Source: Nitrospirota bacterium
GTDB lineage: Bacteria > JACPQY01
Length of the DNA stretch: 64,000 bases
Reading direction: 5' to 3'
Assembly: GCA_016180645.1 (NCBI GenBank)
Contig: JACPAV010000016.1
Location: forward strand, 1 to 64,000
Part shown: positions 32,516 through 44,707 of the stretch, in pieces
Numbering within the stretch: position 1 is the stretch's first letter
Layout of the letters: each line of letters opens with the position of its first letter
Position numbers and translations under genes: made by a program
Notes under the pieces: generated by a model
Told to the model about the DNA's origin: nothing
What the model saw: only the letters and a program-made list of their open reading frames with translations
The model's database searches: none

Positions 32516-34495
32516 TTGGACCAGCAGCGAATTCTCGACCAGATTCTCAACCGACTCTCGCTTCCCGACCTCGTCCAGAAATACACGCCCCTCAAGCTCT
32601 CCGGTAGACAGCATTCGGGGCTCTGCCCCTTCCACTCGGAGAAGACACCCTCGTTCAGCGTCAGCGCCGAAAAAGGGCTTTACCACTGCTTCGGCTGCGG
32701 TGCCGGCGGTAATTTGTTCACCTTTTACATGCAGATGGAGCGGGTCACATTCCCCGAGGCCGTCAAAGAGCTCGCGAGGCGGGCGGGCGTGGAGATTCCA
32801 TCCTCTCCCCAGGACGCCCGACGCGAAAGTCGGCGGGACGCGATGCGTCGGGCTCTGGGCGAGGCCCTGGCGTTCTTTCGGGAGAAGCTGTCCGACTCGC
32901 GGGAGGGATCGGCCACCCTCTCCTACCTGCGCGACCGCGGCCTGACGGAGGAAACCATCAACCGCTTCGAGGTCGGCTGGGCGCCGGCGGAGTGGGAATC
33001 GCTGGCCCAACATCTGCGGCGGAAGAAAATCGATCTCACACTGGCCGAAGCCTGCGGCCTCGTGCGAAAAAAAGCCTCCGGCCATTACGATTATTTCCGG
33101 GCTCGGATCATCTTCCCCATCCGGGATGCGCAAGGGCGACTCTCCGGCTTCGGCGGCCGGGTCCTTCCCGAAGCTCACGCCTCTCGCCCCTCGACCCCCA
33201 CGACGGGGGAAGTGCCGCGGGAGGGCACCCTGAAGGAATCGATGGAATCGGGCAGGGTACTTCGCAGCCTCCCGGAGCGGCCGCCTCCCACCTCCCGGGC
33301 GGAGCCCAAGTATCTCAACTCGCCGGACAGCGAGGTGTTCCGCAAGGGCGAAATCCTCTTTGGCCTCCAGGCGGGGCGGGATTCGATCCTCAAGCAGGGT
33401 GAAGTCACCCTCGTAGAAGGGTACATGGACGCCATCAGCCTCCATCAAGCCGGTCTATCGAACACGGTGGCTCCACTCGGCACGGCGCTCACAACGATCC
33501 ACATCCGGCTCCTCAAGCGTTTCTCACCCGCCTTTCGCATCCTCTTCGACCCCGACGAGGCCGGCGTCAAGGCGGCCCTCCGCTCACTCCCCCTGCTGTT
33601 GGCGGAAGGCATCCTCGCACGAGCCGTGCGACTGCCCGCGGGTCTGGACCCGGACGCCTTCGTTCGGGAGCGTGGCGCGGATGCCCTCCGAGCCCTATTC
33701 GCCTCGGATCAGGATCTCTTCGAAATGGCCATCGACGTGGTCCTCAAGGCCACTCCCCCAACCACGCCCCAGGGCAAGAAAGCGGCCGCGGACCGCCTCC
33801 TCGCCCTTCTTCGACCGGTAACAGATTCCATCATTCTCGACACTTATGTGCGGATGATCTCCCCCCGACTTGGGATTCGCGAGGATGCGCTTTGGCGTTC
33901 TCTCCCCCCGGCGGTTCAAGCGGGCACGGATCCTCGGCCCTCCCCCGTTCCACCCCGATCCATGCCGGGCGCCGGCCGTCTCGCCTCCCTTCGCGAAAAG
34001 CAGCGCGACCTCATGGAAAAGACCGCCCTCCAAGCCGCACTCGACGATCCCCGCCTCTGGTCCGTTCTCTTTCACGCCGGCCTTTTTTTCAAGGATCCGT
34101 GGCGCGCCAAGCTGATCGACACCGCCCATCGCCGGTTCGAAGGTCGGTCCCCGAGCCCCGAGGCGTTCGCAACGCTCTTCACCGAGAAGGACGATTGCGA
34201 GAATTTCAGCCGGCTCGCCTTGGAGCGACCTTCAGCGGTCACGGCATCGCCGGACGAGCGCCTGCACAACGCCCTCAACGGACTCTTTGACCTTGCCAAA
34301 AAGGAGAAATTGGTTTATGTAAGGAACCTTATTCAGAAAGCCGGCAAGCACAACGACGATGCAGAAATGAAGCGGCTATTGCTCGCGAAGAAGCGCGTCG
34401 AAAATTCGCAGCTCGAATGGCCGCTGGATCGAACGCCGGATCTTTTCGCGGAAAAGGAACCCGAGCCGTTGGACGGCCTTTCCGGGCGAGCATGA
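32516..34495 (+). CDS. dnaG: DNA primase DnaG, with an in-frame palindromic repeat insertion
   Basis: 659 residues. Zinc-binding domain [20 protein letters not shown] / [10 protein letters not shown] (residues 38-65), then the RNA polymerase domain: [33 protein letters not shown], and the TOPRIM motif [17 protein letters not shown] with [12 protein letters not shown] helicase-binding C-domain follows. Between GRVL and EPKYLN about 40 extra residues are inserted compared with typical DnaG; these include a 74-bp repeat (residues 231-256) found also in a hydrolase gene of this window. The TTG/GTG choice upstream is not needed: the ATG-like start at 32516 (TTG) gives the full zinc domain. The stop overlaps the rpoD start (ATGA). 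Confidence 0.94.
33208..33281 (+). repeat. 74-bp intragenic palindromic repeat, copy A (inside dnaG)
   Basis: Begins GGAAGTGCCGCG and ends CGGAGCGGC; 72 of 74 bases match 44220-44293 (minus strand). It is an imperfect palindrome: CCGC/GCGG and GGGAGG/CCTCCC outer arms, ACCCTG (33227) / CAGGGT (33253) inner arms. Translated here as [20 protein letters not shown] and LPER, without a stop. Confidence 0.88.
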
Positions 34496-43783: not shown

Positions 43784-44707
43784 TCAGTTCCTTTCGCCCA
43801 GGAAAGCGGACAATTGCCGGTTGAAATCATCCGGGTATTCCAGCATGGGACAGTGCCCGCAGGAAGGGAAAACGGTCAGGCGGGCATGGGGAAGCTCTTT
43901 CTGAAAAACGTGTGCGTTCTCAATCGGGAGCAGCGCGTCGTGATCCCCCCATGCGATCCAGGTTCGAGCTTCGATCTGACGAAGGCGCGCCCGAACGGGC
44001 GTCAAGAGCGCATTTTGGGCCGAGGACATGAAAGCATGGGCCCGGTTTCCGAAATCCGAACCGAAGAACTCCTGGAGGGCGTGCCGGACCATCTTCTCCA
44101 GGACCGGCGGCTCGGTGTAGAAGATGAGCCTCCGAATATAGTCGCGTACAACCTGCTCCCGCTTCTTGGAATCCTTCTCCACGCCCGAGGCCACGGCGAA
44201 GACCTGCGCGAGAAAGTCCGCCGCTCCGGGAGGCTGCGAAGTACCCTGCCCGATTCCATAGATTCCTTCAGGGTGCCCTCTCGCGGCACTTCCTCCCTCC
44301 TGGAGGTCGCCAAACAGAAGCTTCTCCGGGAAGATGTTGACCCCGGCCGCATCGACCAGCGTGAGACTGGAGATCCTCAGAGGATGGGCCAGGGCAAAAG
44401 CTTCGGAAATCATCCCTCCCATCGAATTGCCCACAAGGTGGACCCGCTCGATGCCCAACTTCTCCAGCAGCCCTTTCACCGTCGCGACAAAGAAATCCAT
44501 GGAATATTCCCGGCGGGGCTTTTCAGAATGGCCGAAGCCCGGCAAATCGAGCGCCACCACGCGGCGGCCGCGCGCGAAATAGGGGACATTCAGTTCCCAG
44601 TTCTCCTTGTAGCCGCCGAGACCGTGGACAAAGAGGACGGGTTCCCCCTGGCCCTCATCCAGGTAGCAGATATCGGCTCCATCGAGTCGAATGTGTTTTT
44701 CTTCCAC
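43784..44707 (-). CDS. Alpha/beta hydrolase, with in-frame palindromic repeat insertion
   Basis: 307 residues. The oxyanion region (PVLFVHGLGGYKENW), nucleophile elbow VHLVGNSMGGMISEAFAL (Ser), acid in TWIAWGDHDALLPIENA and catalytic His in PSCGHCPMLEYPDDFN are all visible. Residues 139-163 ([20 protein letters not shown] and PPGAA) derive from the 74-bp repeat also found in dnaG, and sit where the cap domain of such hydrolases begins, a tolerant loop. Substrate unknown; nearest relatives in architecture are ester- or C-C-bond hydrolases. It is co-directional with nuoN (33 bp) and gyrA (13 bp). Confidence 0.88.
   Translation of the reverse strand: MEEKHIRLDGADICYLDEGQGEPVLFVHGLGGYKENWELNVPYFARGRRVVALDLPGFGHSEKPRREYSMDFFVATVKGLLEKLGIERVHLVGNSMGGMISEAFALAHPLRISSLTLVDAAGVNIFPEKLLFGDLQEGGSAARGHPEGIYGIGQGTSQPPGAADFLAQVFAVASGVEKDSKKREQVVRDYIRRLIFYTEPPVLEKMVRHALQEFFGSDFGNRAHAFMSSAQNALLTPVRARLRQIEARTWIAWGDHDALLPIENAHVFQKELPHARLTVFPSCGHCPMLEYPDDFNRQLSAFLGERN
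44220..44293 (-). repeat. 74-bp intragenic palindromic repeat, copy B (inside the hydrolase gene)
   Basis: 72 of 74 bases identical to 33208-33281. The reading frame differs from copy A (repeat base 1 is codon position 1 here, codon position 3 there), so different peptides are made from the same DNA. Confidence 0.88.

Follow-up and report, generated by a model that had tools for sequence, protein, structure and literature searches.

The dnaG locus and a second copy

The 64,000-nucleotide stretch of DNA analyzed here (the window) carries, at 32516–34495 on the forward strand, the only full-length DnaG gene found in its genome. This gene hosts a long-form repeat unit of 90 bp at 33194–33283 (+), which adds 30 residues in frame and is absent from the DnaG proteins of the sister genus, other relatives, and the PDB. 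The initial annotation had placed a 74-bp palindromic repeat in frame within dnaG at 33208–33281, and this is confirmed, with the 74-mer lacking the first 14 bases of the unit (the 5′ part of hairpin 1). The description of one 74-bp palindrome does not hold, as the predicted fold yields two hairpins in a unit of 90 bp. Hairpin 1 (CCCCC-ACGAC-GGGGG; 33195–33209, +) shows compensatory changes at five of five pairs in the 94-unit alignment A4. Hairpin 2 (GCCGC…GCGGC; 33214–33281, +) has a long, bulged inner stem, and helices 2 and 3 covary. The covariance model of the family, R1, matches the dnaG copy at 33191–33283, including three flanking bases, with an E value of 5.9e-10.

A second 90-bp copy lies on the minus strand at 44218–44307, in frame and in the sense direction of an alpha/beta-hydrolase gene (43784–44707, −) whose flanks align to solved hydrolases while the insert is skipped. 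R1 matches it at 44218–44310 (minus; E 2.5e-8), and the reverse-complemented match of the 74-mer at 44220–44293, identical at 72 of 74 bases, is exactly as first reported. The dnaG and hydrolase copies are translated in different frames, and thus the link between the two is one of DNA similarity and not of peptide similarity.

Comparison with homologues delimits the insert. DnaG had been credited with about 40 extra residues between GRVL and EPKYLN; the insert is real, but its size requires revision, since the GGR–EPKY span comprises 47 residues in the source genome, 30 of them derived from the element, as opposed to 15 in the sister-genus DnaG, which reads GGRVTQASTAAAPPEGRTEPKY at the site of the 30 extra residues. 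Alignments of relatives' DnaGs and of PDB DnaGs likewise break at or skip the insert region, and a comparable gap is seen when MurD, SucD, and the hydrolase are aligned with solved homologues. That the matching segments might represent a shared ancestral protein segment or a chance duplication is scarcely conceivable: relatives lack the DnaG segment, the frames differ, the stems covary, and 32 copies exist on about 20 contigs.

Unit anatomy and conserved structure

The commoner form of the element is a 51-base unit of two hairpins with the consensus ACCYCCASGANGGRGGAAGTGCCGCGRGAGGGCAGGAGCCCGGAGCGGCCG. In the 90-base form, 43 bases replace the GGAG of the second hairpin loop (33228–33270, +, in dnaG), as seen by comparing five long copies with short units. 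The region of the 74-mer thus measures 35 bases in the 51-bp unit and 74 in the long form, and the difference of 39 is a multiple of three. The 90-base form is probably a young subfamily in the source genome. A separate long form is present in genome G105 (L261–L264), where matches to the model span 92 bases and an unrelated insert occupies the hairpin-2 loop in at least four places.

The two-hairpin structure is under constraint. Its 15 pairs hold in 96–97% of cells both in alignment A2 (24 units) and in A4, which comprises 94 distinct units from the source genome, the sister genus, Gammaproteobacteria, and one further genome; the structure was first drawn on A2, and A3 and A4 were fitted to it. 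Both sides change at 13 of the 15 pairs in A4, with 251 double-change cells versus 77 in shuffles, and the covariation score is 0.464 compared with 0.150 for shuffled alignments and at most 0.112 for slid-partner controls. Minimum-energy folds of the dnaG copy and of short source-genome units agree with the two-hairpin model, while that of the hydrolase copy departs from it.

While the stems vary, other positions are retained. Of the 94 distinct units, 86 have GGA in the loop of hairpin 1, and 91 have it within or at the loop of hairpin 2. Three bases at the foot of hairpin 2, a bulged T together with a G and a C (TG.C), are conserved at 100%. The consensus preceding hairpin 2 is AAGTG/TAGTG, and that preceding hairpin 1 is YGACC/YGACG. 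The ends of the unit are not inverted repeats of each other and share at most the two bases YG. No Rfam family covers any unit, either at source-genome loci (E up to 1) or at gammaproteobacterial loci (gathering score).

Copies and distribution

The element is dispersed: R1 detects 32 copies (E < 1e-4) on about 20 contigs of the 4.7-Mb source genome, and their flanks are unrelated to one another. A whole-genome search with the 74-mer returns five near full-length copies (95–100%) in five different genes, including three full-length copies outside the window's two (95–97% identical), along with numerous partial matches to its first 20 bases. The in-frame hosts in the source genome include dnaG, murD, sucD, nrdJ, and the alpha/beta-hydrolase gene, among others.

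Beyond the source genome, R1 finds one copy in the sister genus (G001, Nitrospirae-labelled JACPQY; the one other genome of the same family covered by the analysis) and three weak copies in genome G030. A pattern search across 84,980 species adds twelve further contigs, all labelled Gammaproteobacteria or subgroups thereof, and eleven of these genomes carry between 3 and 70 copies. Within a sample of 274 Gammaproteobacteria, 55 (about a fifth) contain at least one copy, the number of copies scored in each genome being subject to a cap. Gammaproteobacterial hosts include TopA, MetE, ValS, MetH, HrpB, TsaD, Tgt, and Ddl, as well as an FAD enzyme, a multicopper oxidase, HsdS, and others; in topA, valS, metH, tsaD, tgt, and ddl the copies are in frame. 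The initial annotation is right in substance, with the unit boundaries, the two-hairpin anatomy, and the gammaproteobacterial spread being new. Literature searches by sequence string and by terms returned nothing naming this family, and phage, plasmid, and viral records gave stray matches only.

A diverged copy lies antisense in a DNA primase gene on a Lonsdalea populi plasmid (NZ_CP072857.1, 3584–3635; L284). In G030, a contig (C27; L106/L107) with more than 15 tRNAs in 3 kb carries element copies between tRNA genes, mostly antisense to the tRNAs.

Insertion site and length

The junction can be read where the element interrupts another repeat. Heptamer arrays are interrupted by exactly 51 bases (TCACG|51|ACTCACG), as are the hairpins of other units (GGACG|51|CAGGAG and GGATG|51|CAC), which represent nested insertions; tandem units also occur at a 51-base period. 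A YG dinucleotide, mostly CG, is present at the left end of nearly all copies; at the interrupted repeats, CG is usually found on the right, and the junction is ambiguous by the two bases of the shared YG. In murD and at the end of ftsA, the copy lies between two TG dinucleotides, which is a weak hint of a 2-base duplication. The features of a classical MITE are absent: there are no terminal inverted repeats and no target site duplication beyond the YG of at most two bases.

Copies often lie within short heptamer (TCACGAC, TCCTGCG) or octamer arrays, the surroundings of the dnaG copy included (other array loci: L047, L048, L056, L058, L065, and L067–L069). Within 60 bases of copies, TCACGAC-type pairs reach about 50 times the density seen at greater distances, on small counts of 5 versus 2.

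Reading frame and orientation

The added length is divisible by three for each of the 41 copies inside genes, compared with 44 of 85 other copies, although this test is in part circular: a copy that broke the frame would not count as in-gene. Two copies of 50 bases, situated at the 3′ end of integrase genes, are cases that escape in-gene scoring. Both are in G202, a single 3.1-Mb contig, where two phage-integrase-family genes (L265 and L267) each carry an antisense copy at the expected IYTHV motif that holds the nucleophile tyrosine; both genes are apparently broken, at the same site.

In-gene loci are sense in 31 cases and antisense in 6 (p 4e-5; 16:2 in the source genome and 15:4 in Gammaproteobacteria), with the gene status of the ORFs taken from Pfam and a reading of the flanks, except for the antisense case L087, which was accepted by the look of the protein alone. 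A coding-potential score over 150-base flanks proved too noisy, and contexts, taken from the sequence surrounding each copy, were classed by Pfam instead. The claim that a mobile palindrome invades coding sequences without disrupting them is thereby supported, in-gene copies being mostly in frame and sense. The reading frame varies between hosts, mostly between two frames that give hydrophilic peptides, and copies are therefore probably screened at the protein level.

Replication-strand bias was considered as the cause of this orientation and is disfavored. The dnaG (+) and hydrolase (−) copies lie 11 kb apart on opposite strands, each sense to its host gene, which suggests that orientation is set by the gene and not by the replication fork.

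The same pair of copies, the 16:2 ratio in the source genome, and the mostly sense orientation of its intergenic copies would also be expected if the element spread at the RNA level, through an RNA or cDNA copy inserted into transcribed strands. Such a route is highly improbable. Clear antisense copies exist within genes for MoaA, RsmE, a P-type ATPase, and a LOG-family protein, a 51-base unit has no known reverse transcriptase or ribozyme feature, and selection on the added peptide could produce the same bias.

Probable mode of movement and relation to known repeats

The element is probably a non-autonomous mobile DNA element, a 51-base two-hairpin unit with a 90-base subfamily in the source genome, that is moved in trans by a Y1/HUH enzyme. 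It would insert exactly beside a YG dinucleotide that is usually left on both sides, so that a host gene gains 51 or 90 bases, and the resulting 17 or 30 codons would keep the frame. Short and mostly hydrophilic, the added peptide falls in linkers and loops, so that even essential genes would survive the insertion. From this architecture we infer that the unit moves single-stranded, as folded DNA, through an IS200/IS605- or RAYT-like transposase, for which the two hairpins would act as left and right ends. Filtering at the protein and RNA levels would then leave mainly sense copies in genes, although an element moving purely at the DNA level would not require a sense bias as strong as that observed.

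Two observations are consistent with this mode of movement. Single-strand transposases read hairpin irregularities, which the fully conserved foot T resembles (PMC8266576), and Y1 transposase genes are found in 50 of 55 element-bearing Gammaproteobacteria versus 136 of 219 others (p 1.8e-5), an association that could stem from genome size or from the overall load of mobile elements. Five element-bearing genomes, one of them with 13 copies, have no detected Y1 gene; many of the genomes without Y1 or csrA are incomplete MAGs. No element copy adjoins a Y1 gene in the regions examined, in the source genome or elsewhere. The sole near co-location is in G070 (L130), where elements inside hsdS lie about 1 kb from a Y1 match. 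Y1 subclasses 2.1 and 2.3 have no known REP, and 2.3 is common in Chromatiales (PMC6006769), which makes these subclasses candidate mobilizers, as a lead only.

The presence of Y1 genes in these genomes raises the question of whether the units are ordinary REPs of the GTAG or CGTC superfamily, mobilized by a known RAYT. The likeness is real: REPs are short palindromes that fold as single strands and show compensatory stem changes, and intragenic copies are known for both superfamilies, among them copies in DNA repair and tRNA synthetase genes (PMC3733652). This identity is nevertheless very doubtful. No GTAG or CGTC tag is found at the hairpin foot in A2, A3, or A4. CGTC REPs are defined by a CGTC (TGTC, CCTC) tag, a stem of 8–9 bp, a loop of 4–5 bases, and a CCA tail, while the layout here is not a single stem but a fixed direct pair of two different hairpins with a 51-base period; most genomes have few or no REP dimers in head-to-tail order (PMC3733652). 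The units also do not flank Y1 genes in the regions examined, and one RAYT-like gene of the source genome, on contig C5, has different GTAG-type palindromes of its own. At that locus (L186; G000:C5:34400-36200), copies of TCGTAGGGGAGCATC… flank the Y1 gene at positions 370–530 and 1117–1415; these palindromes belong to a REP system of their own that has no relation to the present element.

As a mobile element entering genes, the unit resembles two other groups. The RPEs, to which the initial annotation had likened it, are short palindromic repeats present in many copies, inserted in frame in unrelated genes, where they add a short tolerated peptide (PMC10969869). The comparison is apt as a way of working, namely in-frame entry into unrelated protein genes. 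By description, RPEs are about 100–150 bp long and known from Rickettsia, while the present element is a 51- or 90-base unit of two hairpins with GGA loops.

The second group is the non-autonomous elements derived from IS200/IS605, of which PATEs are an example. In the general model, such elements have end hairpins, insert exactly at a short motif, and generate no long target duplication (PMC6006769). The present unit differs in that no related autonomous copy was found, it is far shorter, and its hairpins are almost adjacent.

In-frame mobile palindromes have hitherto been a curiosity best known from Rickettsia. The family described here, with its defined structure and a length fixed at a multiple of the codon, is found in a Nitrospirae-labelled lineage and in approximately a fifth of sampled Gammaproteobacteria, and is hosted by core genes including dnaG, murD, topA, valS, metH, and tsaD. 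The family can serve as a natural experiment that reveals which loops of a protein accept added residues. It can also supply new protein segments and account for short inserts in conserved proteins that are otherwise puzzling, and with the covariance model, the mobilizer, the junction, and an RNA role become directly testable.

A possible role in CsrA binding

The GGA loops invite a different reading, in which the unit acts chiefly as RNA: its two hairpins, spaced about 27 bases apart, would have loops bound by CsrA/RsmA, the sense copies being kept for Csr control or as a decoy and movement being secondary. The CsrA consensus is RUACARGGAUGU, and two GGA hairpins about 27 bases apart suit binding by a CsrA dimer. 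GGA is retained in both hairpins of most units while their stems change. Of 68 gammaproteobacterial units, 47 match a relaxed form of the consensus at hairpin 1, AC-(N)NGGA(N)-GT, and 2 match the strict form. The term CsrA consensus is in published use (PMC7652899). The in-gene sense bias fits such a role, and csrA is present in the source genome and in 11 of 14 genomes examined. It occurs in 52 of 55 element-bearing Gammaproteobacteria versus 183 of 219 others, but this association is weak (p 0.05), with csrA being nearly universal in the class. Small RNAs of the CsrB/RsmZ type have GGA hairpin loops near the CsrA consensus, which the loops of the unit fit; however, each of these is the product of one sRNA gene, whereas the unit is dispersed, mobile, located inside genes, and without an Rfam match.

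A primarily RNA-level function is, on balance, unlikely. Within the source lineage, the hairpin-1 GGA is lost in roughly a quarter of units (20 of 26 keep it), the dnaG copy included. The host genes are unrelated housekeeping genes, and the invariant TG.C at the foot of hairpin 2 is unneeded for CsrA. Further units have also inserted into these same GGA loops, which provides a DNA-level reason for the conservation of the loops.

The favored interpretation, a mobile DNA element, also allows for an unlikely combination, in which the widespread element would carry a ready-made predicted double CsrA site whose in-sense, in-frame insertion could link transcripts to the Csr/Rsm network or drain it. 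Transposition would then rewire post-transcriptional control without breaking proteins.

As a separate observation, an Acidiferrobacterales MAG (G067) contains twelve CsrA-family matches, one of which (C87:2532-2696) lies within 300 bases of an element array.
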